From NCBI GenBank assembly GCA_030529445.1, contig JAUMWW010000003.1:62001-126000 (forward strand): DNA of 64,000 nt. Reading direction: 5' to 3'. This document shows, piece by piece, positions 5,129-22,796 of this stretch. The first letter of the stretch is position 1. Each line of letters begins with the position of its first letter. This DNA comes from Johnsonella sp. GTDB taxonomy: Bacteria > Bacillota > Clostridia > Lachnospirales > Lachnospiraceae. Made by a program: the position numbers and the translations under genes. The notes under the pieces are model-generated. The model was not told the DNA's origin. It searched no databases and worked only from the letters and a program-made list of their open reading frames with translations.

Positions 5129-6355
5129 ATGTCCAGATTTGATACATATTTTCAGATGGATGTTAATGATATCGTAGAATATACACTGGAGAAAGCGAAA
5201 GAGATCGCATGGGATAAGGAGAGCATGAAGGCGGAGGTGCCCAAACAGCACGGAAACCTCAATTATGTATATCGGGTTTGGGATGAAAAAGGTCATTCCA
5301 TCTTTATCAAACAGGCGGGAACGGAGGCGCGGATTTCCAAGGATATGAAGCCTTCCAAGGACAGAAACAGGCTGGAAGCGGAAATTCTTTTGCTGGAGGA
5401 GAAATATGCCCCCGGAATGGTTCCTCATATTTATTTCTATGATACCGTGATGTGCGCCTGTGGAATGGAGGACTGCTCCGATTACGAGGTAATGAGAAAC
5501 GCCATGCTCAAGCATCAGACTTTCCCGCATTTTGCGGAGGATATCTCAGGCTTCATGGCGGATACCTTGCTGCTTACCAGCGATATCGTGATGGATCATA
5601 AGGAAAAGAGAGAGCTTGTAGCAAAGTTTACTTCTCCCGATCTTTGTGATATCACCGAAAAGCTCGTATTAATGGAGCCTTATCAGGATATCAATCGGAG
5701 AAATAACGTATTTGCTCCGAATGCCGAATTTGTAAAAAAAGAGCTTTATGAGGACGAAAAGCTGCATCTGGAGGTTGCAAAGCTGAAATTTGCCTTTATG
5801 ACCAATGCACAGTCTCTGATTCAGGGAGATCTGCATACCGGATCCATCTTTATCAAGGAGGATTCGACGAAGGTTTTCGATTCGGAGTTCGGAACCTATG
5901 CGCCGATGGGCTATGATATCGGCAATGTCATCGCCAATCTTATCTTTGCCTATGTAAACGGAATGGCTTACGAAAAGGAGAGTTTCTGTGCATGGATATT
6001 GGAAAGCGTAGAAAAAACGGTGGATTTATTTATTGAAAAATTCAAGAAAAAATACGATGAGGCGGTTACCGAGCCTATGGCGAAGGTGAAGGGCTTTAAG
6101 GAATACTATCTTGCGGGAATCCTCAGGGACAGCGCGGGCTTTGCGGGAACGGAGCTGCACAGGCGCACGGTAGGCATGGCAAATGTGGCGGATATGACGA
6201 GCATAGAGGATGGGAAGAAGCGCCTGGTTGCAGAAAGAACGGCGATTCTTGCCGGCAAAAATTTCATTCTGAATCAGGAGAAGTTCACCAAGGGTTCGGA
6301 ATATGTCGAGGCAATCAGGAAGGCGGCACAGGAGGCGGCGGAAAGAAGCCGCTAG
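5129..6355 (+). CDS. mtnK: S-methyl-5-thioribose kinase
   Basis: The 408-residue protein phosphorylates 5-methylthioribose (MTR) at C1 with ATP. It shows the APH-like kinase fold with the MTR kinase catalytic loop QGDLHTGS (catalytic Asp about 234) and the metal loop DSEF (Asp251, Glu253) followed by MGYDIG. In most MTR kinases the loops read HGDLH and DPEF, so Gln and Ser here are small deviations. Length matches the family. An AGGAAAGG-type ribosome binding site lies upstream and the permease gene ends 27 bases before. Placement between an importer and mtnA supports salvage of imported MTR. 5-Deoxyribose is an alternative substrate known for some family members. Confidence 0.92.
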   Translation: MSRFDTYFQMDVNDIVEYTLEKAKEIAWDKESMKAEVPKQHGNLNYVYRVWDEKGHSIFIKQAGTEARISKDMKPSKDRNRLEAEILLLEEKYAPGMVPHIYFYDTVMCACGMEDCSDYEVMRNAMLKHQTFPHFAEDISGFMADTLLLTSDIVMDHKEKRELVAKFTSPDLCDITEKLVLMEPYQDINRRNNVFAPNAEFVKKELYEDEKLHLEVAKLKFAFMTNAQSLIQGDLHTGSIFIKEDSTKVFDSEFGTYAPMGYDIGNVIANLIFAYVNGMAYEKESFCAWILESVEKTVDLFIEKFKKKYDEAVTEPMAKVKGFKEYYLAGILRDSAGFAGTELHRRTVGMANVADMTSIEDGKKRLVAERTAILAGKNFILNQEKFTKGSEYVEAIRKAAQEAAERSR

Positions 6356-7523: not shown

Positions 7524-7970
7524 ATGCTTAAGGGAATACCGAGCGCGATCTCACCGCAGCTTTTGAAGGTTCTTCATGAAATGGGACATGGGGATACGCT
7601 GGTAATCGGAGATTTGAATTATCCGGCAGCTTCCTGCGCCGCGGGGGGAGGAGGAATCAACATAAGATGCGACGGGATGAGGGCAACCGAAATGCTTGAC
7701 GCGATTTTGCAGCTCTTTCCCCTGGACGCTTATGTGGAAAAACCGGTGCTGATTATGGATAAGCCCGAAGAACATAAGGATCTTCCGACTCCGGTATGGG
7801 AGGAATTTCAAGAGATCGTTGCAAGACATGATGAGAGAGGGAAAAAGGCGATAGGGTTTATCGATCGATTTGATTTTTATGAGCAGTCGAAAAAAGCCTA
7901 TGCCGTTGTTTCGACGACGGAAAGAGCTTTTTATGCATGCATTATCATCAAGAAGGGATGCGTGATGTAA
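7524..7970 (+). CDS. RbsD/FucU-family sugar mutarotase
   Basis: The 148-residue protein aligns by eye with FucU (140 residues). It starts MLKGIPSAISPQLLKVL, has MGHGDTLVIGD with His22 and an Asp near residue 30, and ends with the TTERAFYACII strand holding the catalytic-type Tyr. These proteins interconvert alpha and beta anomers of fucose or ribose. The start at 7524 is chosen because GGAGGG (7511-7516) lies eight bases before it; an upstream ATG at 7503 precedes that site. It is the last gene of the operon, so it may supply the anomer of MTR or 5-deoxyribose that the kinase uses. That role is inference. Confidence 0.85.
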   Translation: MLKGIPSAISPQLLKVLHEMGHGDTLVIGDLNYPAASCAAGGGGINIRCDGMRATEMLDAILQLFPLDAYVEKPVLIMDKPEEHKDLPTPVWEEFQEIVARHDERGKKAIGFIDRFDFYEQSKKAYAVVSTTERAFYACIIIKKGCVM

Positions 7971-8040
7971 GAGGCTTGGCGAAGCAAGAGGGATAGGACT
8001 TAGGCGGCATGCGGATTTTTAATAGCTTCTCGGATAATGT

Positions 8041-8085
8041 ATGCCGATAAGACTTATCTTTTGGGGTCTTATCGGCATGTTTTGT
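8041..8085 (+). terminator. Terminator of the ABC-mtnK-mtnA-mutarotase operon
   Basis: A perfect 13-base-pair stem (8041-8053 with 8066-8078) with a 12-base loop is followed by the modest U-tract GTTTTGTTG. It closes the first operon before the allantoin genes. Confidence 0.85.
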
Positions 8086-8118
8086 TGCGGAAGATATTAA
8101 GAGAGCCTGGAAACCCTC

Positions 8119-8327
8119 TTGTACCAAACTGAGCAACATGATAAAATAAAGTGTACTAATCGCGATCATAAAAGCGGAAAGGAGAGTAAAAAGAAAACAT
8201 TAAAAGATTTTTCGATTTTTAGCATCAGTTTAGTAGGCGTTTGAGTGGGGATATGGAGAAAATGCAAAGGCGCAGAAGGAAACTGCGCGGATCTACTCTA
8301 TTTTTAAAGAAAGGTCGAGGTATGATT
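8119..8327 (+). promoter_or_regulatory. Probable promoter and leader of the allantoinase operon
   Basis: TTGTAC (8119-8124) and TAAAAT (8142-8147) are spaced by 17 bases and make a fair sigma-A promoter. The leader of about 175 bases contains one small hairpin, GCGCAG (8270-8275) with CTGCGC (8283-8288). No terminator or recognisable riboswitch core is seen in it. No regulator gene of the AllR, AllS or PucR type lies nearby. Confidence 0.5.
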
Positions 8328-9734
8328 ATGTATGATATGATCATTAGAAACGGAAAACTGGTTACGCCGGATAGAATTTTCGAGGCGGATATTGCGATTC
8401 AGGATGGGAAATTTGCTGCTTTCGGTGCTCCGGGAACGGGTTGGGAGGCAAAGGAAGTTATCGACGCGAAGGGGAACTATGTATTTCCCGGAATCATAGA
8501 CTGCCATGCCCACTTAAATGAACCCGGATTTGAGTACAGAGAAGATTTTGAGACGGGTTCAAGAGCGGCGATCGTGGGCGGTACCACTACCGTAATCGAT
8601 ATGCCGCTGAATAATAACCCTTCTTTGATGAATAAAGATATTTTTGCAATGAAGCTTGAGAAGGTCAGCAGACATTCTGCAATAGACTTTGCTTTATGGG
8701 GAGGAATCGTAGGAGATTACGATGATTCGCCGGATTCCATCAAGAACAATCTGAAGGATCTGGAAGGTCTTGAGCATTGCGGGGTAGCGGCGTTTAAGGG
8801 ATTTACCTGCCCCAACGGAGATCTTTTCCCCACGGTAAATATGGGACATGTGCGTAAGGCATTGGAGATCTTAAAGCCTTACGGCGCTCTCTGCGGTTTC
8901 CACTGCGAGGAATACGGACAGATCAAGGAAAGATCCAAAGAAGCAAGAGAAAAGACCGGAAGGAGCAGAGATGAGAAGATCTCCGATTTCCTTGAGGCAC
9001 ATGATGTATGGACCGAGTATGTGGCAACGAAAAACGTGATCGATATGTCCAGAGCGACGGGCGGAAGAGTGCATATTTGCCATGTGACTCATCCCATGGT
9101 TGCACAGGTTGTTAAGGATGCGATCGCCGAGGGCCTGCCGGTCAGCGGAGAAACCTGTCCGCATTATCTGGGCTTTACGGAGGAATTTGTGCATGAGAAG
9201 GGAGCTCCCGCAAAATGTACGCCTCCGATGCGTAAAAAAGAGGATATGGAGAAGCTTTGGGACTATGTGCTGGACGGCACGCTTTCCTGCATCGGAAGCG
9301 ACCACTCGCCCGCAGCGGATCATGAGAAGGATAACGAGACCAAGGATATTTACGAAGCATGGGGAGGATTAAATGCGATACAGTTCTTCCTGCCTCTCGT
9401 ATTTGATCTGGTAGTGCATAAAAAAGGACTTTGTCCTACCCTGATCAGCAGAGTGATGGACTATAATCCGGCAAAGCTCTTCGGACTGTACGGACGCAAG
9501 GGTGCGTTTGAGATAGGATTTGACGGAGATATCGTGATCGTAGATCCGGAAAAGGAATGGAAATGCGAACAGGAGAAGCTCTTTACCAAGGGTCATGTTT
9601 CCTGCTTTGACGGTGTGAGCGGAAAGGGCGCGGCGGTATGCACGATTATCCGAGGAAAAGTAGTGGCTCAGGACGGTATGTATAAGCAGGATGCAATCGG
9701 ATACGGGCAGTTTATCAGACCGGTAAAAAAGTAA
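8328..9734 (+). CDS. allB: Allantoinase
   Basis: The 468-residue amidohydrolase opens the hydantoin ring of allantoin to give allantoate. Metal-site features are visible: HAH (His60, His62) followed by LNEPG, the lysine to be carboxylated in AAFKGF (Lys157), FHCEEYG (His192), HICHVTH (about 249-255) and GSDHSP (Asp325). The motif TGSRAAIVGGTTT and the DMPLNN segment are typical of allantoinase rather than dihydropyrimidinase. The start at 8328 has GAGG seven bases before it; an upstream in-frame ATG at 8241 has no ribosome binding site. The neighbouring permease and all genes support the specific call. Confidence 0.93.
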   Translation: MYDMIIRNGKLVTPDRIFEADIAIQDGKFAAFGAPGTGWEAKEVIDAKGNYVFPGIIDCHAHLNEPGFEYREDFETGSRAAIVGGTTTVIDMPLNNNPSLMNKDIFAMKLEKVSRHSAIDFALWGGIVGDYDDSPDSIKNNLKDLEGLEHCGVAAFKGFTCPNGDLFPTVNMGHVRKALEILKPYGALCGFHCEEYGQIKERSKEAREKTGRSRDEKISDFLEAHDVWTEYVATKNVIDMSRATGGRVHICHVTHPMVAQVVKDAIAEGLPVSGETCPHYLGFTEEFVHEKGAPAKCTPPMRKKEDMEKLWDYVLDGTLSCIGSDHSPAADHEKDNETKDIYEAWGGLNAIQFFLPLVFDLVVHKKGLCPTLISRVMDYNPAKLFGLYGRKGAFEIGFDGDIVIVDPEKEWKCEQEKLFTKGHVSCFDGVSGKGAAVCTIIRGKVVAQDGMYKQDAIGYGQFIRPVKK

Positions 9735-9764
9735 GCACTTAAAAACATAAGGACGGGAAAAAAT

Positions 9765-11156
9765 ATGAGCGAGAAAAAGAATGTAATGGTGAATGAAGAG
9801 GTAAAAGGGGAAAAGAAAGAGGCAGGATCGCTTGCGCCGATTGCCGAAAAAGACCGTATTATGGGATGGGGCTCCTATCTGATGCTCTGGCTCGGAGGAT
9901 GTATCTCCATCGGTACGCTGACGATGGGCTCGGCACAGCTGAGCAAGGGAATGAACCTGATGCAGGTTTTCATGGCGGTGCTTCTGGGTTCGGTAATCCT
10001 GGTTATCGGTATCTGTGCAAATGATAAATTCAGCTATCATACGGGTGCGCCCTATGCGGTTCAGTTAAAGAGCGCGTACGGAACGAAGGGAAACATCGTA
10101 CCGGTTATGCTCAGGGGTCTGCCGGCGATCGTATGGTACGGATTCCAGACCTGGCTCGGAGGAAGTGCGATCAACCAGATCTCGATTGCCTTGTTTAATT
10201 TTGATAATGTATATGTGTATTTTATTTTGTTCCAGATCATTCAGATCATCCTTTCGGTAAAGGGATTCCACGGAATTAAATGGGTAGAGAACGTAGGCGG
10301 CGTGGTTATCGTATCCGCAATGCTTTACATGCTTTATATCTGCGTTACCCAGTACGGGGATGTAATCGGAACGGAACTGATCAATAAGAAGGGAACATGG
10401 GGAATGCCCTTTATTGCGGCAGTCATCGCTTTCTTCGGAAACAGTACGACGGTTATGCTGAATGCGGGAGACTATTCCCGTGAGCTTAAGGGAGGCTATT
10501 CGGTAGGAAAGAGAGGAATCGCTTACTTTATCGCAATGGTTCCGACGACGGTTCTTCTCGGACTGATCGGAGCGATGGCTTCTACGGCTACGGGGATTGC
10601 AAACCCGATTAACGCATTTTCACAGATGGTAGGAAACAAGGTTCTTTTGGTGGTAACACTTGGCTTTATTCTTTTTGCTCAGATGACAACGAACCTTGCG
10701 AGCAACGTGGTTCCTCCGTCATATGCGTTTATGGACGCGTTTAAGATCAAGCATCGCACATCGGTAATTTTGGTCGGTGTTTTGGCGGTATGTACCTGTC
10801 CTTGGATTTTGACCAATGACAGCTCCGCTGCCGGACTGGATCTTTTTGTAAAGATTTATACAGCGTTTTTCGGACCGATCTTTGCGGTGCTGATCACCGA
10901 TTTCTATGTGCTTCATAAGGGAAAATATACGAAGGAAGCATTGGAAGATCTTTATAATGAAGAAGGAAACCGCAAGGGAGTGAACTGGGCTGCAATTATC
11001 GCTACCGCAGTAGGTGCGGTGATCGGACTGATCAACGTAAATATTTCTTTCTTTACGGCGACGATTCCGACAGCGCTCATTTATTATTTCTGCATGAAGA
11101 ATATGCCTTCCTGCGAGAGATTCAGAAGGGGAACGATTCTCGAAAACAAGAAATAA
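9765..11156 (+). CDS. NCS1-family permease, probably allantoin permease
   Basis: The 463-residue protein has about twelve membrane segments and the NCS1 (cytosine/purine/hydantoin) signatures. These include an N-terminal MGWGSYLMLWLGG helix, WYGFQTWLGG near residue 125 and the GFHGIKWVE loop near 165. NCS1 carriers bring nucleobases, hydantoins or allantoin into the cell by cation symport. The gene lies 30 bases after allantoinase, in the position PucI or AllW takes in other bacteria, so allantoin is the likely substrate. A cytosine or hydantoin carrier is the alternative. It appears to be the last gene of this operon. Confidence 0.88.
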   Translation: MSEKKNVMVNEEVKGEKKEAGSLAPIAEKDRIMGWGSYLMLWLGGCISIGTLTMGSAQLSKGMNLMQVFMAVLLGSVILVIGICANDKFSYHTGAPYAVQLKSAYGTKGNIVPVMLRGLPAIVWYGFQTWLGGSAINQISIALFNFDNVYVYFILFQIIQIILSVKGFHGIKWVENVGGVVIVSAMLYMLYICVTQYGDVIGTELINKKGTWGMPFIAAVIAFFGNSTTVMLNAGDYSRELKGGYSVGKRGIAYFIAMVPTTVLLGLIGAMASTATGIANPINAFSQMVGNKVLLVVTLGFILFAQMTTNLASNVVPPSYAFMDAFKIKHRTSVILVGVLAVCTCPWILTNDSSAAGLDLFVKIYTAFFGPIFAVLITDFYVLHKGKYTKEALEDLYNEEGNRKGVNWAAIIATAVGAVIGLINVNISFFTATIPTALIYYFCMKNMPSCERFRRGTILENKK

Positions 11157-11336: not shown

Positions 11337-12221
11337 CTAGGAAAGCTGTTCCCGGATAAAGGTCAGGGAAGCCTCCAAGAGCATTTTCTTGAGGAAGCCG
11401 CTTTCCGTGCGGTCAAAATCATGCGCCGAGGAAGCGCAGACATAGCGCTTTGCATTGTATTTATCGCAAAGAGCCAGAAATTCCTCGTAGGGAACATCGG
11501 GATCCTGTATGCTGTGGGCACAGAAAAGAGGAGAGGGAAGGCGCTCTGCAAAGCGAAGAGAATATGAGGATAAAAATGAGCCGTATTTTCCGGGATAGAG
11601 CAGCTTGCGCCAGAGCCCTTTCTGCCTTGCATAAACATAGGCATGATAATAAAGTTCCAGAGGAGCGTTTGTGCGGATGGAAGAGGGCTGCTCCAGCGCG
11701 GAGTCCGGAACCGGCGGGAGGCGAAGATAATGGGGACTCGGGATATCAAACCAATTATCGCAAAGAAAGCCGTAGCCGTAAAATGAGAGGATTCCGGAAG
11801 CTTTGCCTAAAGGAGCAAAGTGTTTTGCTTCTTCCGCTTTGGAAGGAAAGAGAGATTTTGCTGCGCCCATAAGGCATAGATAGGCGCCGGCGGATCTTCC
11901 GAAGAGGAAGAAGGGAGCCGAAGAGTCTATGCCGGGAAGAGCGTTTTTAGTATACAGGCGCACGGAATCTGCGATATCCTTCAAGATGCTTTCCAAATCG
12001 GCAGAGGGGGCGAGAGGATAATCAAAGGCGATGATCCCAAGCCCCGCCCCGGTGAAGGCTTCAAGATGAGAGGGGGGAAGGTCCTCCCTGCTTCCGTAAA
12101 GCAAGCCGCCGCCGTGAAAATATAAAATAAAAGCCTCGATTTTGTCCGCTTCGGGAAGGTAAAGGGTCGCTTCTTTAAAATACAGCCCGCAGGGCAGAGA
12201 AATAAGTTTCGTAGAATACAT
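11337..12221 (-). CDS. Alpha/beta hydrolase (acetyl-esterase type)
   Basis: The 294-residue protein has the alpha/beta-hydrolase-3 pattern. The oxyanion motif HGGG is at 36-39, the nucleophile elbow GRSAG at 108-112 (Ser110), a candidate acid in QDPDVP and the catalytic His in SAHDF near the C terminus. AGGAGG lies six bases upstream of the start on the minus strand. It splits the allantoin genes into two blocks and is read in the opposite direction. No signal peptide is seen, so it is cytoplasmic. Its substrate is unknown, and a direct role in allantoin breakdown is not supported by known pathways. Confidence 0.82.
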   Translation of the reverse strand: MYSTKLISLPCGLYFKEATLYLPEADKIEAFILYFHGGGLLYGSREDLPPSHLEAFTGAGLGIIAFDYPLAPSADLESILKDIADSVRLYTKNALPGIDSSAPFFLFGRSAGAYLCLMGAAKSLFPSKAEEAKHFAPLGKASGILSFYGYGFLCDNWFDIPSPHYLRLPPVPDSALEQPSSIRTNAPLELYYHAYVYARQKGLWRKLLYPGKYGSFLSSYSLRFAERLPSPLFCAHSIQDPDVPYEEFLALCDKYNAKRYVCASSAHDFDRTESGFLKKMLLEASLTFIREQLS

Positions 12222-12241
12222 AAAGCCTCCTGCTTGAAATT

Positions 12242-12277
12242 AAGACGGCATAAGCGCTGTCTTGCCCGATTATATCA
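12242..12277 (-). promoter_or_regulatory. Extended -10 promoter of the esterase gene with overlapping palindrome
   Basis: On the minus strand TGATATAAT (12277-12269) is a perfect extended -10 element. Just downstream, overlapping the expected start of transcription, lies a 22-base imperfect palindrome (12242-12263) with arms AAGACnGC and GCnGTCTT. The palindrome sits between the divergent esterase and allE genes and could be an operator for either. No clear plus-strand promoter for allE was found. Confidence 0.5.
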
Positions 12278-12360
12278 TATTTTTCAGAGAAATGGGGAAA
12301 GCGGGAAAGCCCAAGCGTATTTTTTATGGATAAATCAAAAAGAAAGTGAGGACGGAAGAA

Positions 12361-13149
12361 ATGAGTTATTTGAACAATCAGATCGGATATAGAGAGGATG
12401 TATTGAACACGCGCTCTATTGTAAAAAAGGAGAACTATGTGCTGCTTGAGCCGGACGGCTTGGTGAAGAATACGATTCCCGGCTTTGAACATTGTGATGT
12501 GACGATTCTGGGTTCTCCCGCGATGGGAGCGACCTTCGTCGATTATCTGGTGAGCGTGCATGAGGGAGGAAAGCATCCCGGCTTCGGAGAAGAGGGCATA
12601 GAGGTATTTCTTTATGTGATCGAAGGCGAGCTGAAGGTAAGCAATAAGGACGAGGAAGCGCATCTGACCAAGGGCGGCTATATCTTCTCCCCCGCGGGAA
12701 GCAAGGTGGCATTTTCCTATGCGGGAACGCCGGATACCAAGGTCTATCTGTATAAGCGCAGATACGATAAGATAGAGGGATACGAGGCGCATACCGTAGT
12801 CGGCAACGATAAGGATCTTCCCTGGATTTCCTATGAGGGAATGGAAAACTGCTATATTAAAAACTTCCTGCCCTCTACCGATAATTTCGGTTTTGATATG
12901 AATATGCATATCCTGAAATTCCATCTCGGCGCTTCTCACGGTTATATCGAGACGCATATTCAGCAGCACGGAATGTATTTCCTGAGCGGAAAGGCGATGT
13001 ACAGGCTGGATGGAGACTGGGTGCCGGTCAAGAAGGGCGATTATGTGTTTATGGATGCGTACTGCCCGCAGGCTTGCTACGGAGTGGGAAGAGAAGAGGA
13101 GCTGACTTATATCTATTCCAAAGACTGCAACCGGGATGTGCGTTTATAA
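12361..13149 (+). CDS. allE: (S)-ureidoglycine aminohydrolase
   Basis: The 262-residue bicupin protein removes ammonia from (S)-ureidoglycine to give (S)-ureidoglycolate. The C-terminal cupin shows the Mn-binding set with the spacing known for this enzyme: Glu197, His199, His203 and Gln237, in GYIETHIQQHG and CPQACYGVG. The C-terminal YSKDCNRDV also matches E. coli AllE (261 residues). The start at 12361 has GAGGA eight bases upstream; a GTG at 12346 lies before that site. It opens the second allantoin operon, which continues with allD. Confidence 0.95.
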   Translation: MSYLNNQIGYREDVLNTRSIVKKENYVLLEPDGLVKNTIPGFEHCDVTILGSPAMGATFVDYLVSVHEGGKHPGFGEEGIEVFLYVIEGELKVSNKDEEAHLTKGGYIFSPAGSKVAFSYAGTPDTKVYLYKRRYDKIEGYEAHTVVGNDKDLPWISYEGMENCYIKNFLPSTDNFGFDMNMHILKFHLGASHGYIETHIQQHGMYFLSGKAMYRLDGDWVPVKKGDYVFMDAYCPQACYGVGREEELTYIYSKDCNRDVRL

Positions 13150-13183
13150 GCATCGGGATTAAAATAAGAGGGAGGCTGAGAAG

Positions 13184-14236
13184 ATGAAACTGTCCAGAGA
13201 AGAATTAAAGAGTCTGATGAAGAATAAGATGATGAAAGCGGGATTATCGGATGAGCATGCCGATATGACGGCGGAAATACTGACATGGTCGGATGAAAGA
13301 GGATATCATTCTCACGGTGCGGTTCGCGTAGAGTATTATTCGGAGAGAATCGCAAAGGGAGGAATCACCGCCGATCCCAAGTTTGAATGGGAAGAGACCG
13401 GTCCCTGTTCGGCTATTTTTGAAGGAGATAACGGCTGCGGTTATGTTGCGGCAACGATCGCGATGGAAAAAGCGATAGAGATGGCGAAGAAGACGGGAAT
13501 CGCGGTAGTGGGAGTCCGCAATATCTCACATAGCGGAGCGATAGGATATTATACCGAAATGGCGGCAAAGAATGATTTGGCGGCGATTTCCTTCTGTCAG
13601 TCCGATCCTATGGCAGTGCCTTACGGCGGAACGGAGCCCTATTACGGAACCAACCCGATTTCCTTTGCGGCACCGACGGCGGACGACAGACTGGTTGTTT
13701 TTGATATGGCGACTACGGTTCAGGCATGGGGCAAGATTTTGGATAAGCGTTCCAGAGGAGAAAATATTCCGGATACCTGGGCGGTGGATGCAAAAGGAGC
13801 TCCGGTAACCAATCCGAACCTCGTCAACGCGCTTGTGCCGATTGCGGGCGCGAAGGGCTACGGATTGATGATGATGGTGGATATTTTTTCCGGCGTTCTC
13901 CTTGGAGTTCCTTTCGGAAAACATGTAAGCTCGATGTATCATGATCTCTCGGAGGGAAGAAACCTCGGTCATATGCATATCGTAATCGATCCTGCAAGAT
14001 TTGTGGGATTGGAAGCATTTAAAAAGAGCATGTCTCAGGTCTGCGACGAGCTCGGAGAGATGACCCCGGCAGAGGGGCATGATAAGGTATATTATCCGGG
14101 AGAGAGAGCGGTGCTTCGCAGGGATCAGGCATATGCGACGGGCGGAGTGGAAATCGTGGATAATATCTATGAATACCTGAAGAGCGAGGATATTCATTTC
14201 AACAGATATGATCATAAAAACAGATTTGCGGATTAA
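13184..14236 (+). CDS. allD: Ureidoglycolate dehydrogenase (NAD-dependent)
   Basis: The 350-residue protein belongs to the Ldh_2 (malate/L-lactate/ureidoglycolate dehydrogenase) family and matches AllD in length (349). Visible signatures are the catalytic-region SHGAVRVEYYSERI near residue 44, HSGAIGYYTEMA near 117 and KGYGLMMMVDIFSGVL near 225. It oxidises (S)-ureidoglycolate to oxalurate with NAD, producing reducing equivalents anaerobically. It lies 34 bases after allE with GGGAGG upstream. Its presence, with an FdrA-type protein downstream, points to the oxalurate branch rather than the glyoxylate branch. Confidence 0.93.
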   Translation: MKLSREELKSLMKNKMMKAGLSDEHADMTAEILTWSDERGYHSHGAVRVEYYSERIAKGGITADPKFEWEETGPCSAIFEGDNGCGYVAATIAMEKAIEMAKKTGIAVVGVRNISHSGAIGYYTEMAAKNDLAAISFCQSDPMAVPYGGTEPYYGTNPISFAAPTADDRLVVFDMATTVQAWGKILDKRSRGENIPDTWAVDAKGAPVTNPNLVNALVPIAGAKGYGLMMMVDIFSGVLLGVPFGKHVSSMYHDLSEGRNLGHMHIVIDPARFVGLEAFKKSMSQVCDELGEMTPAEGHDKVYYPGERAVLRRDQAYATGGVEIVDNIYEYLKSEDIHFNRYDHKNRFAD

Positions 14237-14342
14237 AATCCTGCTTTGGTAAGAGTTTTATGTTCATAAATGAAAAAATATCGAAAGAGATACCGGTGTT
14301 ATCAAACAGTTTTGCTGGAGTCGGAAAGGAAAGGGATTGGAT

Positions 14343-17300
14343 ATGTTGAAAACAATTGTAAAAAAAGGGAGCTATCATGATTCTGTCGTGCTGATGCTTT
14401 TGACCAATGAGATATCTTCATTGGAGGGAGTTCATAAGGTCTCCATCATGATGGCGACGCCTGCAAACAAGGATATTTTCAAGCAGAGCGGACTCGAGAC
14501 CCCGGAGCTGATGGCGGCTTCCGCCAATGACCTGGTCATCGTAGCCGATACGGAAGATGAGAAGGTTTTTGATCAAATCCTTGAAGGAATGGAGGCGTTT
14601 TTTGCAAGACAGCAGTCTAAGAGCAGCTCGGATAAGGCTTCGGAGAGCGTGAAATCATGGGATAAGGCTTTGGAGAAACTGCCGGAGGCGGATCTGGCGG
14701 TAATTTCCATTCCCGGAGCATATGCGGCGCTGGAAGCGGATCGGGCATTGGAAGAGGGGCTGAATGTATTTATGTTCAGCGACAATGTCAGCATAGAGGA
14801 TGAGAAAAAGCTCAAAGAAAAAGCGCATTCCAAAGGGCTTGCGGTAATGGGACCGGACTGCGGTACCGGCATTATTCAGGGCGTGCCTGTTGCATTTACG
14901 AACAGCGTAACCCCCGGTGCGATCGGAATCATCGGTGCCTCGGGAACGGGAATACAGGAATTGACGACGATCATTGACAGGCTGGGCGAGGGTGTAAAAA
15001 ATGCAATCGGAACCGGAGGAAGAGATCTTGCGGAGGAAATCGGCGGCATTACGATGCTGGATATGATCGATGCGATGGAGAGCGATGAGAGCGTAAAGGT
15101 GCTGATCGTGATTTCCAAGCCTCCGGCAAAGGCGGTAAGAGAAAAGATATCCGCCAGACTGAGCCGCTTCCAAAAGCCCGTGATCACGCTCTTTTTAGGT
15201 GAAAAGCCGGCATTCCACGAAAAGGACTTTTATCATGCCTATACCTTGGACGAGGCTGCCAGACTTGCGGTAGGTCTGGTGAGAGGGGAGAAGATCAAAG
15301 AGGGAGAATTGCTTGCAAAGGAGCAGGACTGCTTCACTCCCGGAGAGAAAAAGACGATCAAGGCATATTATTCAGGCGGAACCCTGGCGGGAGAGGCGGC
15401 AATGCTGATCAAAGAGGCGCTTTCTCTGGAAGCATCCGCAAAAAAAGCGGAGGGTTATATGTTAAAGACCGAGGGGCATGTGGTGATCGACCTCGGAGAC
15501 GATGTATATACGCAGGGCAAACCCCATCCGATGATCGACCCGGCAAAGAGGATTGAATGCATGCAGGAAGCGGCGGACGATGAGAGTACGGGAGTGGTGC
15601 TTTTTGACGTCGTGCTCGGATACGGCTCTCATGAAGATATGGCGGGAGCGCTTCTTCCGGCGATTAGGCTTTTGCAGGATAAGGCAAAGCAGAGCAGCCG
15701 CAGACTGCATTTCGTGGCTACAGTATGCGGAACGACCAGGGATTATCAAGGATATGATGCGGCGGTAAAGAAGCTTGCAGACGCGGGAATCTATGTTTGC
15801 GAGACGAATAAGCTCGCGGTGCTGACCGCTCTTAAGCTCGTCGGCATCACTCTTAGGGAGGAGGAAAAGCAGATCAGGGAAAAAGAGGTTCTTCCCTGTG
15901 AGGTATCCCCGGCTTCCGATCGCCTGCTCAAGCTCCTTTCTCAAAAGCCGAAGATCATCAATATCGGATTGAAGAGCTTTGCGAAAGTGGCTGAAGAATT
16001 CGGCTGCGAGGTGATACAGTATGACTGGACTCCTCCGGCGGGAGGCAATATCGAGATGATTCGTGTCCTCAATTATCTGAGAAGCTATGAGGGAGTGGAT
16101 ATCGATGAAGCCAATCGGGCGGTGATCGCAAAGATTGTCGCAAGCAGCCCGGTGATCAAGGATAATGTGCGCGCAAAGGAAGTTATTCCGGTTCTTAATG
16201 AGGGCAAGGTCATTCTTCATGCAGGTCCTCCAATAGAGTATAAGAATATGCCCAATACCGTGCAGGGCTCCTGTGTGGGAGCGGTACTTTTCGAGGAATG
16301 GGCGCAGGATGAGGAAGGAGCGAGAAAGCTTCTTGAATCCGGAGAGGTACGCTTCATTCCCTGCCACCACGTTGATGCGGTAGGACCGATGGGAGGAATT
16401 ACCACGGCGAATATGGCGGTCTTTGTCGTTGAAAACGAAACCGATAAGAACAGGGCGTACTGCACGATGAATGAGGGCATAGGCAAGGTGCTTCGTTTCG
16501 GCGCATATTCTCAGGAGGTTGTAGACAGGCTGCGCTGGATGAGGGATGTGCTCGGTCCCGTGCTCGGAAAAGCGATCCGCTCGATGGAAAAGGGGCTTGC
16601 AATCAATCCGATGGTGGCAAAGGCGATTGCGATGGGAGACGAATTCCATCAGAGAAATATTGCGGCATCGATGACCTTCCTCAAGGAATTGGCACCGATC
16701 ATTACCGCAATGGAATTATCGGAAAAAGACAGATACGATGTGATGAAATTCCTCTCCGATACGGATCAGTTCTTCCTCAACATCATGATGGCGGCAGCTA
16801 AGGCGGTGATGGACGGAGCGAGAATGATACAGGAGGGTACGGTTGTTACCGCAATGTGCAGAAACGGCGTCGAATTCGGTATTCGCATCGCGGGAATGGG
16901 AGACGAATGGTTTACCGGACCGGTCAACACTCCGCAGGGTCTGTATTTTACGGGCTATGACGGAGAGGATGCATGCCCGGATATAGGAGACAGCGCAATC
17001 ACGGAAACCATAGGCGTCGGCGGAATGGCGATGATTGCCGCTCCTGCCGTAACCCGTTTTGTCGGAGCAGGAGGATACGAGGATGCGCTCCGCGTCAGCG
17101 AAGAAATGACGGAAATTACGATCGACCGCAACCCGAATTTCATCATTCCGAACTGGAACTTCAGAGGAAGCTGTCTGGGAATAGATGCCCGTCTGGTGGC
17201 GGAAAAGCAGATTACCCCGGTGATCAATACAGGTATTGCGCATAAGATCGCAGGCTACGGTCAGATCGGAGCCGGTACGGTACATCCTCCGCTGGAGTGT

Positions 17301-17351
17301 TTCGAAAAAGCGGTTATGGCATATGCAAGGAAACTCGGATATCAGGCTTAA
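14343..17351 (+). CDS. FdrA-YlbE fusion, probable oxamate (oxalurate) carbamoyltransferase
   Basis: The 1002-residue protein joins two families that are separate genes in E. coli. Residues 1 to about 510 are FdrA-like, with succinyl-CoA-synthetase-type folds and motifs MGPDCGTGIIQGVP, GIIGASGTGIQE and CGTTRDYQGY. From about 530 to the end it is YlbE (DUF1116), with VDAVGPMGGITTANM, NEGIGKVLRFGA and a Gly-rich C-terminal half. The E. coli FdrA, YlbE and YlbF trio (renamed AllFGH) is reported to be the oxamate transcarbamylase that splits oxalurate with phosphate into oxamate and carbamoyl phosphate. No YlbF (DUF2877) gene is visible in this window. The start at 14343 follows AAAGGG; a TTG two codons earlier is inside the spacer. 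allD upstream and arcC 18 bases downstream fit the role. Confidence 0.9.
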   Translation: MLKTIVKKGSYHDSVVLMLLTNEISSLEGVHKVSIMMATPANKDIFKQSGLETPELMAASANDLVIVADTEDEKVFDQILEGMEAFFARQQSKSSSDKASESVKSWDKALEKLPEADLAVISIPGAYAALEADRALEEGLNVFMFSDNVSIEDEKKLKEKAHSKGLAVMGPDCGTGIIQGVPVAFTNSVTPGAIGIIGASGTGIQELTTIIDRLGEGVKNAIGTGGRDLAEEIGGITMLDMIDAMESDESVKVLIVISKPPAKAVREKISARLSRFQKPVITLFLGEKPAFHEKDFYHAYTLDEAARLAVGLVRGEKIKEGELLAKEQDCFTPGEKKTIKAYYSGGTLAGEAAMLIKEALSLEASAKKAEGYMLKTEGHVVIDLGDDVYTQGKPHPMIDPAKRIECMQEAADDESTGVVLFDVVLGYGSHEDMAGALLPAIRLLQDKAKQSSRRLHFVATVCGTTRDYQGYDAAVKKLADAGIYVCETNKLAVLTALKLVGITLREEEKQIREKEVLPCEVSPASDRLLKLLSQKPKIINIGLKSFAKVAEEFGCEVIQYDWTPPAGGNIEMIRVLNYLRSYEGVDIDEANRAVIAKIVASSPVIKDNVRAKEVIPVLNEGKVILHAGPPIEYKNMPNTVQGSCVGAVLFEEWAQDEEGARKLLESGEVRFIPCHHVDAVGPMGGITTANMAVFVVENETDKNRAYCTMNEGIGKVLRFGAYSQEVVDRLRWMRDVLGPVLGKAIRSMEKGLAINPMVAKAIAMGDEFHQRNIAASMTFLKELAPIITAMELSEKDRYDVMKFLSDTDQFFLNIMMAAAKAVMDGARMIQEGTVVTAMCRNGVEFGIRIAGMGDEWFTGPVNTPQGLYFTGYDGEDACPDIGDSAITETIGVGGMAMIAAPAVTRFVGAGGYEDALRVSEEMTEITIDRNPNFIIPNWNFRGSCLGIDARLVAEKQITPVINTGIAHKIAGYGQIGAGTVHPPLECFEKAVMAYARKLGYQA

Positions 17352-18318: not shown

Positions 18319-18353
18319 CGGCATCCGAATACAAACGTGTTTTTCGGATGCCG
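18319..18353 (+). promoter_or_regulatory. Intercistronic stem-loop between arcC and the LctP-like permease
   Basis: CGGCATCCGAA (18319-18329) pairs perfectly with TTCGGATGCCG (18343-18353) around a 13-base loop. No U-run follows, so it is unlikely to terminate transcription. It may mark an RNA processing or stability boundary between the enzyme genes and the transporter part of the operon. Confidence 0.6.
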
Positions 18354-18380: not shown

Positions 18381-19988
18381 ATGACTATACCTACAAATCT
18401 ATTTATGTGGATATTGGCTTTTCTGCCAATTATCGTATTATTGCTGCTGATGATCGGCTTTCAATGGGGAGCGACGGAAGCGGCGCCCATAGGATTGCTG
18501 ATTACCGCAATAACGGGAATCGTGTTTTATAAGGCGGATCTGAAATTGATCGCCACGGAAAGCGCAAAGGGAATGTGGAGTGCGGTATCCATCCTTCTGG
18601 TGGTTTGGACCGCCATTCTGATGTATCAGGTCGGAGAGGAGGTAAAGGCATTTTTGGTCATTCGCAACGGCATGCGCAAGCTATTGCCGAACGAGCTTCT
18701 GCTGATCATCGCAATGGGTTGGATTTTTGAGAGTTTTCTTCAGGGAATCACCGGATTCGGCGTGCCGGTAGCGGTCGGAGCACCGCTTTTGATCGGCATA
18801 GGAGTGAGTCCCTTATGGGCGGTGATTATACCGCTTTTGGGACAGGCATGGGGAAATACCTTCGGAACGCTTGCGGCGGCATGGGATGCGCTTGCGATGT
18901 CGGCAGGAATTCCGGTGGGATCGGAACATTATTTTCTGACCGCTTTTTGGACGGCATTGTTTTTGCTTTTTTGGAATATCGTTACCGGGTTTGCGATCTG
19001 CTGGTTCTACGGAAAGGGAAAGGCGATTAAAAAAGGACTTTTCGCGGTTCTGCTTATGGCGGCGGTGCAGGGAGGAGGAGAGCTGATTTTAAGTCAGGTC
19101 AATACCACTCTTGCCTGCTTTATTCCCTCCTGCATTTCCATGCTGCTGATTCTGGTAATCGGCAGGATGGGCACTTATAAAGAGGAATGGAGCATAGAGG
19201 ACAGCCCGATCATGAACAGGGATTTTTCTGAGAAAAAGGAGGAGAGCGCGCCGCAGGGAATGAGCCTGCTGCAGGCGTTTATCCCCTATATCGTGCTTTC
19301 CGCCATTACTCTGGCGGTGCTTTTGATCAAACCCGCAAATGAATTTTTGGGACAATTTTCCTTCGGTCCTTCCTTCCCCGAAACGGTGACGGGCTACGGA
19401 GTCGTGAACAAGGCGGCGCAAAAATACGCTCCGCTCGCATTATTTACGCATGCGGGACTCTTCCTCCTGATTTCTTCGATCTGGGGGATGATATACTATC
19501 ATAAAAAGGGCTGGATGAAGGAAGGTGGCTTAAAGAGGGTATTTGTCAAATCGGTTGCGATGACCGTTCCTTCGGGAATCGCCGTGATCGGTCTGATCAT
19601 TATGTCAAAGATCATGAGCGGCACCGGGCAGACCATCGTTCTAGCAAACGGTATTTCGGCGGTGCTCGGAAAAGCATATGTAATCTTTGCGCCCTTTGTC
19701 GGTCTTTTGGGAACCTTTATGACAGGAAGCAATATGAGCTCGAATATTTTATTCGGAGACTTCCAGATCACGACCTCCAATATGCTGGAGGTAAACAGCG
19801 CGGCAGTCCTGGGAGCCCAAAGCACGGGAGGAGCGATAGGAAGCGCAGTCAGCCCGAGCAAGATCATCCTGGGAACGACGACGGCGCAGATTCTCGGAAG
19901 TGAAGGAAGCGTGATGAAAAAGCTTTTGGTAGTCACGGTGCCGGTTACTCTGCTGATCGGACTTGTCGTCTTCCTTCTGGTAATATAA
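18381..19988 (+). CDS. LctP-family (lactate/glycolate) permease; candidate oxamate transporter
   Basis: The 535-residue protein has about thirteen membrane segments and the LctP hallmark ESFLQGITGFGVPVAVGAP near residue 115, followed by the GQAWGNTFGTLAAAWDAL segment. The C-terminal part has the TGSNMSSNILFG and STGGAIGSAVSPSKI motifs. LctP carriers move lactate or glycolate with protons. Here the gene sits inside an allantoin operon between arcC and allC. Oxamate, the end product of the oxalurate pathway, is a close structural analogue of lactate and pyruvate, so oxamate efflux is a reasonable inference. Glycolate or lactate transport remains possible. AGGAGA lies upstream of the start. Confidence 0.85.
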   Translation: MTIPTNLFMWILAFLPIIVLLLLMIGFQWGATEAAPIGLLITAITGIVFYKADLKLIATESAKGMWSAVSILLVVWTAILMYQVGEEVKAFLVIRNGMRKLLPNELLLIIAMGWIFESFLQGITGFGVPVAVGAPLLIGIGVSPLWAVIIPLLGQAWGNTFGTLAAAWDALAMSAGIPVGSEHYFLTAFWTALFLLFWNIVTGFAICWFYGKGKAIKKGLFAVLLMAAVQGGGELILSQVNTTLACFIPSCISMLLILVIGRMGTYKEEWSIEDSPIMNRDFSEKKEESAPQGMSLLQAFIPYIVLSAITLAVLLIKPANEFLGQFSFGPSFPETVTGYGVVNKAAQKYAPLALFTHAGLFLLISSIWGMIYYHKKGWMKEGGLKRVFVKSVAMTVPSGIAVIGLIIMSKIMSGTGQTIVLANGISAVLGKAYVIFAPFVGLLGTFMTGSNMSSNILFGDFQITTSNMLEVNSAAVLGAQSTGGAIGSAVSPSKIILGTTTAQILGSEGSVMKKLLVVTVPVTLLIGLVVFLLVI

Positions 19989-20015: not shown

Positions 20016-20228
20016 GTGGAAAAAAACAATTTTTTTGCAAAAAAAGAAGGAAAACTGACCATTGCATTTATGGTTTTGATCCTTTCCTTTGTCCTCATGG
20101 TCTACGGGGTAAACAAAGACAGCAGTGCTTTATATACGGCGGGGTTTGGGATTGCGATGCTTGCAATGATGTATTCGCCATTTAAAACCTATGTTCTGGA
20201 TAAAATAAAAAAACAGAAAACTCATTAA
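20016..20228 (+). CDS. Small two-helix membrane protein in the allantoin operon
   Basis: The 70-residue product starts with GTG and has a Lys-rich N terminus, two membrane segments (about 14-32 and 38-56) and a Lys-rich C terminus. I do not recognise a family. It lies 27 bases after the LctP-like permease and about 25 bases before allC, in the same orientation and without a terminator between. It could be a small partner of the permease. The ribosome binding site (GGGAAAG) is weak, but composition and operon position support a real gene. Confidence 0.65.
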   Translation: MEKNNFFAKKEGKLTIAFMVLILSFVLMVYGVNKDSSALYTAGFGIAMLAMMYSPFKTYVLDKIKKQKTH

Positions 20229-20254
20229 TCAGTATTAAAGAGAGGAAAATGAAG

Positions 20255-21496
20255 ATGAATATTGGAGATATCACAGGAAGAATTGCAAGAGATTTAGAGC
20301 AGTTTAAGGTATTTACGGCAACTCCGGGAAACGGCTGCACCAGACTTCCCTTCACCAAAGAAGCCAGAGAGGCGGGGAATCACCTGAAGAAACTGATGGA
20401 AGAGATCGGTCTGAAGGCTTGGGAAGACACGGCAGGAAATATATTCGGACTCATGGAGGGAGAGGATACCGAGGCTCCTTGTGTAATGATGGGTTCTCAT
20501 TATGATTCGGTAGTGCATGGCGGAGATTTCGACGGAATTGCCGGTGTGGTTTGCGCTTTGGAAACCGCAAGGCTGATGAAGGAAGAGGGATTCAAGCCGA
20601 AGAGAAATTTCGTGGTGGCAGGCTTTTGCGACGAAGAGGGTATGCGCTTCGGAACCGGATACTTCGGATCGGGAGCAATGCTCGGAAATCGGGATGTGGA
20701 GTATTGCAAGAATTATAAGGATAAGGACGGAATTTCAATCTATGAGGCGATGAAGTCCGACGGGCTGGATCCGGAGAAAATAGGAGAGGCGAAATGGAAA
20801 GAGGGCTCGATCAGCCATTTTATCGAGCTGCATATCGAGCAGGGACCGGTACTGGATACCGAAAAGATTGAGCTCGGGCTGGTACACTGCATCGTGGGTA
20901 TGCAAAGATATATGGTAACCGTGCACGGACGTGCCGATCATGCCGGAACGACGCCGATGGATATGCGTATGGATGCCGTGGATGCCGCAACAAAGGTTAT
21001 TTCCAAGATTGCGGACTGGGCGGTAGAAAAGGCGGACGGAACGGTAGCGACGACGGGTTATATCAAGACGGTTCCGGGCGGAATGAATATTGTGGCGGAG
21101 AGAGTCGAATTCACGGTGGATATCCGTTCAAAGGACGTGAACAATATCAATGATATCGCAAACCGCATCCGTACGGCGCTCGACAGGGAAGTAAAGGCGA
21201 TGGGCGGCAGCTATGAGATCGATACCAAGCTCGTGATCAACCCCGTAAATCTTTCCGAGGAAATGCTTGAGATCATGGAAAAGGAATGTGAGGAAAGAGG
21301 ATATAGCGCAAAGCGCATGCTCAGCGGTGCGGGGCATGATTCTCTGGAGATCGGGCAGAGCATTCCTTCGGTTATGCTCTTTGTGCCGAGCAAGGACGGA
21401 AGGAGCCATACTCCGGTTGAGTTTACAAAATACAGCGATTTTGCAAAGGGAACGGTGATTATCGCCGGTCTTGCAAAGAAGCTTCTGGCAAAGTAG
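20255..21496 (+). CDS. allC: Allantoate amidohydrolase
   Basis: The 413-residue M20-family enzyme hydrolyses allantoate to (S)-ureidoglycine, ammonia and CO2. Metal and active-site motifs are present: GSHYDSVVHGGDFDG, DEEGMRFGTGYFGS, HIEQGPVLD, HGRADHAGTTPMDMR and GAGHDSLEIG near the C terminus. Length matches E. coli AllC (411). Two ATGs (20249 and 20255) follow AGAGG; the second has the better spacing of nine bases. N-carbamoyl-L-amino-acid hydrolases are close relatives, but the surrounding allantoin genes decide the call. It is the last gene of the operon. Confidence 0.93.
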   Translation: MNIGDITGRIARDLEQFKVFTATPGNGCTRLPFTKEAREAGNHLKKLMEEIGLKAWEDTAGNIFGLMEGEDTEAPCVMMGSHYDSVVHGGDFDGIAGVVCALETARLMKEEGFKPKRNFVVAGFCDEEGMRFGTGYFGSGAMLGNRDVEYCKNYKDKDGISIYEAMKSDGLDPEKIGEAKWKEGSISHFIELHIEQGPVLDTEKIELGLVHCIVGMQRYMVTVHGRADHAGTTPMDMRMDAVDAATKVISKIADWAVEKADGTVATTGYIKTVPGGMNIVAERVEFTVDIRSKDVNNINDIANRIRTALDREVKAMGGSYEIDTKLVINPVNLSEEMLEIMEKECEERGYSAKRMLSGAGHDSLEIGQSIPSVMLFVPSKDGRSHTPVEFTKYSDFAKGTVIIAGLAKKLLAK

Positions 21497-21646: not shown

Positions 21647-22240
21647 ATGGAATTTTGGACGAGGCAGGCAAGTGAGGTCTGGGAAGAGCTGCAAAGCAGC
21701 GGGCATTACCATGTGAAGAAGGAGTACATCGAGAAGAAAAATGATACGATTGCAAAGTATTATACGGATCTTTACGAATGGTATACCGGGGCGGCAAGAA
21801 AATATATCGATATTCCTAAGGAGTATCATTATCCGATTTGGATGAGCCTCAGTGAAGATTTGATGCTCCGACCCGCAGAGGATGCGGTGATTTTGCGTTT
21901 GGAGGTCCCTGAAGGGAAATACCTGATCTGCAATTACGATAAATGGGGGTATCGGATGAATTACTGGTATGTTCCGCTGGATGAGGAGGATGAAAAAAAA
22001 CATCAGGCAGAGCTTAAGCGCTGCGGTATTGTCTCGGAGGACAGCCTGATTTCGGGAAGCCGGGGAAATTTTTATCCGCTTTTAAAAAGAAAAATTATAG
22101 AGAGCTGGGACAGAATTTTTACCATAGAGCCGAAGAGTCCCGAGCTTACAGTGGGCACCTGCTGGGAAATCGAAAAAGGATGGGTAAGGGAGGTGAGATT
22201 TTATGAAGGAGAAAATCCCCGCTCTTCCCGGGGAGAATGA
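21647..22240 (+). CDS. DUF3841 protein, first copy
   Basis: The 197-residue cytoplasmic protein begins MEFWTRQASEVWEELQ and matches what I recall of DUF3841, a family of unknown function. Its conserved blocks are VKKEYIEKK near residue 23, PIWM near 64, LRLEVPEGK near 85, and YPLLKRKIIESWDRIF near 145. GGGGAGG lies upstream of the start. It is co-transcribed with a second, diverged copy that overlaps its 3' end by 38 bases. No catalytic motif is obvious. Confidence 0.8.
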   Translation: MEFWTRQASEVWEELQSSGHYHVKKEYIEKKNDTIAKYYTDLYEWYTGAARKYIDIPKEYHYPIWMSLSEDLMLRPAEDAVILRLEVPEGKYLICNYDKWGYRMNYWYVPLDEEDEKKHQAELKRCGIVSEDSLISGSRGNFYPLLKRKIIESWDRIFTIEPKSPELTVGTCWEIEKGWVREVRFYEGENPRSSRGE

Positions 22241-22796
22241 AGAATATCTCGTGATGTATACGGCGCAGACAAAGCAGGTCTTGGAAACGCTGCAAAGAGA
22301 GGGTGTCAATTATGTGAAGAAGGCATATATTGCGGAAAAATACAAGGAATCGGCATGGATATTTCAAACTGCGTACGGATTTTTTGTATCGGAAGCGGAA
22401 AAATATCTGAAACGACCTCCCCGGGCGGAGTCTCCGATCTGGATGTTTTATGATAAGAGATATGCCGCGGTCAGTCGGGACTGTGCAAGAATCAAGCTAA
22501 GGGTTCCCAAAGAAGAAGTGATCCTCTTCGATCTGCGCACATGGACGAAGATTTTAAATATGAAGCTGATCGGGACGAAGGAGGAGGAGGAAAGCTTCGA
22601 AGAAGAATGCAGAAGGCAGGGGATCGCCAATGAGGCGGATATCCTCAGGACGGGCTTTTATCCCCTGCCCAAAAGAAAGATTCTGGAAAGCTGGAAGCGG
22701 CTCTTTACCGAAGCTCCGCCTCCGGATGACTATATACAGGGGGCGGCATGGAAGCTGGAAGCGGGCTGGATCATGGAAATAGAAAAAGCGTTTTAA
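22203..22796 (+). CDS. DUF3841 protein, second copy
   Basis: The 197-residue protein is a diverged tandem paralogue of the preceding gene. It shares VKKAYIAEK, PIWMFYD, LRVPKEE, a WTKILN segment and YPLPKRKILESWKRLF in the same order. It has an N-terminal extension of about 17 residues before the DUF3841 start. The start codon is inside the first gene and follows GGGAGG. Its stop codon overlaps the stop of the convergent reductase gene, with no terminator between them. The function is unknown. Confidence 0.8.
   Translation: MKEKIPALPGENEEYLVMYTAQTKQVLETLQREGVNYVKKAYIAEKYKESAWIFQTAYGFFVSEAEKYLKRPPRAESPIWMFYDKRYAAVSRDCARIKLRVPKEEVILFDLRTWTKILNMKLIGTKEEEESFEEECRRQGIANEADILRTGFYPLPKRKILESWKRLFTEAPPPDDYIQGAAWKLEAGWIMEIEKAF

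Follow-up and report, generated by a model that had tools for sequence, protein, structure and literature searches.

The carriers ArcD and AguD exchange substrate for product in the arginine and agmatine deiminase pathways. They offer a functional analogy to the carrier described here, which would likewise clear the carbamoyl-acceptor product, and as in those operons its gene lies beside those of a transcarbamylase and a carbamate kinase. ArcD and AguD belong to a family unrelated to LctP, and for the present carrier an exchange mode would be hypothetical. Oxamate, of which pyruvate is an isostere, inhibits lactate dehydrogenase. In Escherichia coli, 16.6-17.7 mM oxamate was released from ~20 mM allantoin and was not consumed (PMC8550087, PMC11326118). 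Since oxamate appears in the medium, some oxamate carrier must exist. No published bacterial oxamate transporter was found in the literature searched; oxamate is listed as a dead-end metabolite of E. coli with neither a consuming nor a transport reaction (PMC3781023), and it was not until 2024 that the producing enzyme could be matched to its genes (PMC11326118). Proteins of the LctP/LldP/GlcA family (PF02652), among them E. coli LldP and GlcA, have monocarboxylate substrates, and LctP and LldP of Staphylococcus aureus carry pyruvate (PMC12632267).

The carrier gene and its surroundings

The window, a 64,000-nucleotide stretch of DNA from Johnsonella sp., was analyzed with profile searches, trees, structure prediction and genome comparisons. 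A previous, sequence-only reading had assigned the gene at 18381-19988 to an LctP-family permease within an allantoin operon, and both the full-length match to PF02652 Lactate_perm (223.8 bits, cut-off 27) and the neighboring genes (Table 1) agree with this assignment. The intact open reading frame encodes 535 amino acids, begins 78 bp 3' of the carbamate kinase gene and is the sole PF02652 gene in the 2.06-Mb genome. Scores for the more specific models stayed below the curated cut-offs: 214.7 bits for TIGR00795 'lctP' (cut-off 341) and, far below, 91.8 for the LldP equivalog (cut-off 918) and 62.5 for the GlcA equivalog (cut-off 1121). The predicted location between carbamate kinase and allC proved correct, but the gene for a 70-aa protein that separates LctP from allC had been overlooked; likewise, the fdrA gene named in that reading is present, but as a fusion with AllG.

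Table 1. Features of the allantoin operon in the window
Coordinates	Strand	Feature	Basis
8241..9734	+	Amidohydrolase, likely allantoinase AllB	PF01979, neighborhood
9765..11156	+	NCS1-family permease (PF02133), likely allantoin importer	Profile match
11337..12221	-	Alpha/beta hydrolase, divergent	Pfam; near 55/59 clade loci
12346..13149	+	AllE, (S)-ureidoglycine aminohydrolase	TIGR03214 331.2 bits, above cut-off
13184..14236	+	AllD, ureidoglycolate dehydrogenase (makes oxalurate)	TIGR03175 573.7 bits, above cut-off
14337..17351	+	FdrA-AllG fusion (AllF+AllG), oxamate carbamoyltransferase core	FdrA 712 bits; PF06545 AllG 324.9 bits
17370..18302	+	Carbamate kinase (ArcC type), ATP from carbamoyl phosphate	TIGR00746 363.7 bits, above cut-off 358
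18381..19988	+	LctP-family (PF02652) carrier, proposed oxamate transporter, large component	Profile matches, tree, AlphaFold model
20016..20228	+	Small membrane protein, 70 aa, two hydrophobic stretches, proposed carrier accessory subunit	GTG start; clade conservation
20249..21496	+	AllC-type allantoate amidohydrolase	NF006771 442.7 bits, above cut-off 399

The operon holds AllD, FdrA/AllG and carbamate kinase together and is thus of the oxamate-forming type. AllH, the third subunit of the E. coli oxamate carbamoyltransferase (OXTCase), is absent from it; the only homologue in the genome was found on another contig (C36, L157, 804-1766), apart from both FdrA-AllG clusters of this genome. An allH deletion mutant of E. 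coli still made some oxamate (PMC11326118).

Further features were noted in the window and elsewhere in this genome. The gap between the carbamate kinase gene and LctP contains an inverted repeat (18320-18352, GGCATCCGAA...TTCGGATGCC) without a T-run, a possible site of mRNA processing or attenuation. Two neighboring, overlapping genes at 21647-22796 both encode DUF3841 proteins (PF12952), and a 408-aa protein encoded at 5129-6352, with no Pfam match above cut-off, belongs to an operon for a sugar-type ABC transporter that also includes genes of the MtnA-like and RbsD/FucU kinds. A second oxamate-type cluster (L154, contig C28) comprises FdrA-AllG (57%), a transporter of the SDF family (PF00375) and a second AllD (85%), at 7822-10836, 11988-13316 and 13320-14387, and is adjoined by a PucR-type regulator.

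Phylogeny, predicted structure and a proposed small partner gene

All carriers of the window type formed one group in the tree, with a support of 100/100, apart from E. coli LldP and GlcA and from every ordinary LctP sampled. The group also includes distant members, namely those of genomes G252 (37%) and G451 (32%) and three plasmid-borne copies (36-45%). Carriers of Pasteurellaceae nest within the Bacillota clade; the operon therefore probably crossed phyla as a unit. With the remainder of the LctP/LldP/GlcA family, the window carrier shares 30 conserved positions, for example the GFG of the first hairpin. It differs from ordinary members in its low identity to them (≤31%), its tie to oxamate-forming genes and its small partner gene.

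An exchange was found at the position of LldP E130, which is occupied by Q121 in the window carrier. Glutamine is present here in every clade member, and glutamate in 69/69 ordinary LctPs (39/39, then 30/30 further ones). The window carrier thus lacks the invariant first-hairpin Glu expected of lactate/glycolate:H+ symporters, in which this residue may act as the proton carrier. Near Q121, Asp is changed to Asn, Arg to Leu, Ala to Thr and Pro to Ala, some of these changes being missing in the most distant members. Replacement of a membrane Glu by Gln suggests an altered coupling or an amide-binding site.

No solved structure in the PDB was matched by sequence in a phmmer search. An AlphaFold model was obtained with a pLDDT of 86.6 and a pTM of 0.86, in which the residue changes map to the tip of a hairpin, at the break between helix 105-124 and helix 129-139; an S450-N451 motif occupies the corresponding break in the second repeat. 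The model aligns over ~400 residues with solved carriers of the ion-transporter superfamily (the DASS proteins VcINDY, NaDC3 and NaS1; ArsB; the AbgT proteins YdaH and MtrF; TRAP-QM), with Z mostly 13-21, at a sequence identity of 9-13%, and has in common with them two helix-break-helix hairpins. By this model, the window LctP is predicted to have the fold of the superfamily. In VcINDY, the hairpin tips form the substrate site.

The gap of 260 bp between LctP and allC contains the 70-aa open reading frame, the GTG start codon of which lies 27 nt past the LctP stop codon with GGCGGG upstream. The gap was also considered as an RNA element, but its folding is not unusual (z -0.25) and it encodes the small protein. 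No family in Pfam or NCBIfam scored above cut-off for this protein. A profile built from its relatives detected it 3' of LctP in 71/80 clade loci and in most clade loci of the whole genomes, Pasteurellaceae included; beside ordinary LctPs, this profile detected none. Several of the nine clade loci without it end at the LctP gene, and L075, L093, L099, L101 and L102 truly lack it. The early-branching members L099, L101, G533 and G252 are among those without a small protein. In L092, L096 and L111, where the downstream allC is absent, the small gene still follows LctP. A median dN/dS of 0.084 (219 pairs) was determined at a mean pairwise identity of 51%. On the basis of this linkage, we propose the 70-aa protein as an accessory subunit of the carrier.

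Association with oxamate-forming and probable oxamate-consuming enzymes

The sequence-only reading had suggested examining whether this LctP clade co-occurs with allantoin genes. In a panel of 397 Lachnospiraceae-level genomes, with clade membership set at ≥55% identity, clade carriers were present in 17 genomes, and AllG was found in 16/17 of these as compared to 7/380 others (p 3e-22). Ordinary LctPs, present in 26 genomes of this panel, showed no association with AllG (p 0.66); only 2/26 have AllG, and both also hold a clade copy. In a Clostridia panel, AllG is present in each of the clade genomes G000, G511, G741 and G533. Among 121 Pasteurellaceae, most of which contain ordinary LctPs, the clade is represented in nine, with AllG in 9/9 as compared to 8/112 others (p 2e-9); all nine AllG frames have the fused length. 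Genome counts do not equal independent events, as much of them goes back to vertical descent or to the operon having been transferred as a unit, and they were therefore not accepted as sole evidence.

Conservation of the gene context around LctP is far beyond chance. Among the 59 loci whose upstream flank is complete, FdrA-AllG was found in 57, carbamate kinase in 56 and AllD in 53, and the gap between carbamate kinase and LctP has a median of 51 bp across clade loci. The clade is separate from the lactate and glycolate importers and linked to AllG, which runs counter to the grouping with importers and the independence from allantoin genes that the sequence-only reading had named as arguments against its proposal. 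Divergence of LctP tracks that of FdrA-AllG (r=0.83) and carbamate kinase (r=0.89). The correlation with the entry genes is low for the NCS1 permease (r=0.31), partly owing to mixed NCS1 paralogues, and for AllB (r=0.22); NCS1 and AllB correlate with each other at 0.92. The alpha/beta hydrolase encoded at 11337-12221 also co-diverges with LctP (r 0.84).

The steps leading to oxalurate vary. Genomes of Butyricicoccus and Anaerostipes without AllD, and G533, contain a class-V aminotransferase and retain the carrier. Such a gene near operons without AllD, at 4142-5401 of L072, is a candidate for a ureidoglycine-to-oxalurate transaminase; a ureidoglycine aminotransferase is given for Bacillus subtilis as an alternative route to oxalurate (PMC5270733). 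Loci L072, L074, L075 and L092 have an SDF transporter and lack NCS1 and AllB. As both the entry system and the route to oxalurate vary and the carrier is constant, the common element is the step yielding oxamate and carbamoyl phosphate. For the SDF-family (PF00375) transporters found next to OXTCase genes, a role as replacements of LctP was considered; they also accompany LctP where NCS1 and AllB are missing, and for those, import of allantoate is the likelier role. FdrA/AllG clusters without LctP (L149 11460-12683; L151 5814-7106; L264-L270) often contain another transporter (SDF, MFS, NCS1-like or Nramp-like), as if each OXTCase-type module had its own carrier.

A search of plasmid records yielded only three matches above 27% identity, from Paracoccus alcaliphilus, Rubrobacter radiotolerans and Qingshengfaniella alkalisoli, aerobes belonging to Alphaproteobacteria and Actinomycetota. 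All three carriers have Gln at the position of Q121, are followed by a membrane protein of 64-67 aa, and lie beside a gene annotated as gamma-glutamyltransferase (GGT). The small proteins of plasmids and clade matched with a probability of 94% and an E value of 1.7e-7 in a single profile comparison; the Rubrobacter protein by itself gave a weak match.

By summed chain scores, the closest solved relative of the three GGT-like enzymes is PDB entry 5HFT, which we take to be the Klebsiella protein HpxW, reportedly described by Hicks and Ealick in 2016 as an oxamate amidohydrolase. This activity of HpxW is cited in PMC5270733. Summed over both chains of 5HFT, the enzymes scored 402/363/382 bits, above any other solved entry, as compared to 356/330/333 bits for 2nlz and 274/229/259 bits for the E. 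coli GGT 2e0w; in the catalytic chain, about half of the residues are identical to those of 5HFT. These enzymes also score above the cut-off of the curated GGT model. A homologue from Caballeronia is nearer to 5HFT (649 bits) than the LctP-linked enzymes (363-402 bits) and does not have an LctP as its neighbor; hence, the plasmid enzymes are probably HpxW-like, but not certain orthologues. A fourth close homologue, from the archaeon Salinigranum, adjoins a gene of the oxalate/formate-antiporter family. The distant Q-type LctP of G451 (L230 8983-11912, 32%) has an acetamidase/formamidase-family gene and an SSF symporter as neighbors. Considering operon and plasmid contexts together, this type of carrier accompanies oxamate-making and probable, HpxW-like, oxamate-consuming enzymes. 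The plasmid link, as judged from sequence comparison, would add independent support for oxamate as the substrate.

Proposed function and alternative explanations

We consider it likely that the protein encoded at 18381-19988 is an oxamate carrier on a separate branch of LctP, probably together with the 70-aa protein, and that it functions as an oxamate exporter in allantoin fermentation. Oxamate export, put forward as a possibility in the sequence-only reading, is supported by the co-occurrence, the separate clade and the amidohydrolase-like association; substrate, direction and the two-protein partnership are inferences. Allantoin would be taken in by the NCS1 permease and broken down to oxalurate, which FdrA-AllG would convert with phosphate to oxamate and carbamoyl phosphate; carbamate kinase would then form ATP, CO2 and ammonia from the latter. 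Oxamate would remain as the sole organic end product and, being an inhibitor of lactate dehydrogenase, must exit the cell, presumably via the LctP carrier. As the window operon contains no oxamate consumer, export is the likely direction, and import in the plasmid-bearing aerobes. Loss of the invariant Glu may have uncoupled transport from protons, in which case the membrane potential could push the anion out. Possible, although less probable than the general proposal, is a two-component oxamate transporter consisting of a Glu-less LctP and a two-helix subunit, acting as an electrogenic exporter in allantoin fermenters and as an importer in oxamate-hydrolyzing aerobes.

The strongest rival to oxamate export is precursor exchange, in which allantoate or ureidoglycolate would be brought in as oxamate leaves. 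Such an antiporter, which we regard as unlikely, fits the presence of allC downstream of LctP in 68/71 testable loci, and loss of the Glu is compatible with an exchanger as well. Furthermore, the complete genome G035 retains a clade LctP adjoining allC, with AllG, AllD and the small protein all absent; the long branch that this LctP forms within the clade suggests that its use has changed secondarily. However, in the three loci without allC after LctP (L092, L096 and L111), LctP is still found next to FdrA-AllG and carbamate kinase, allantoate could be imported by the SDF transporter in the four loci devoid of NCS1 and AllB, and the HpxW-like plasmid loci have no annotated allC.

Alternatively, the carrier might import a precursor (allantoate, ureidoglycolate or oxalurate) with oxamate exiting another way. 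The characterized LctP proteins are importers, and G035 has LctP and allC without an oxamate-forming enzyme; but LctP is constant where the entry modules differ (NCS1/AllB or SDF), and its divergence tracks that of FdrA-AllG and carbamate kinase rather than that of the entry genes, which makes this explanation quite improbable. An ordinary lactate, pyruvate or glycolate permease present in the operon by chance would agree with the PF02652 membership and the substrates of its relatives, but was rejected as the least probable explanation of all on the basis of the separate clade, the scores below the LldP, GlcA and TIGR00795 cut-offs, the fact that several Pasteurellaceae and G191/G243 hold both a clade LctP and ordinary ones, the lack of glyoxylate-branch genes (AllA, Gcl, GlxK-type) in all 59 loci whose upstream flank is complete, and the Glu-to-Gln change.

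Some genomes do not conform to the association. One is G035, with a clade LctP and allC but neither AllG nor AllD; another is Clostridium thailandense (L101), in which the 10 kb around the clade LctP hold no allantoin gene and AllD is absent from the genome. In the family panel, six AllG genomes are without any clade member, as is the oxamate-excreting E. coli; apparently, the carrier is not the sole solution.

What is new here is a branch of the known LctP family that probably carries oxamate, with a small partner. If true, a named oxamate carrier would close the pathway, show how fermenters escape poisoning of their own lactate dehydrogenase, and tie oxamate release by gut bacteria to its use by others. 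The small partner would make this a two-part carrier, at present annotated as a lactate permease and a hypothetical protein, or missed. The natural Glu-to-Gln change provides a simple test of proton coupling in the LctP family.
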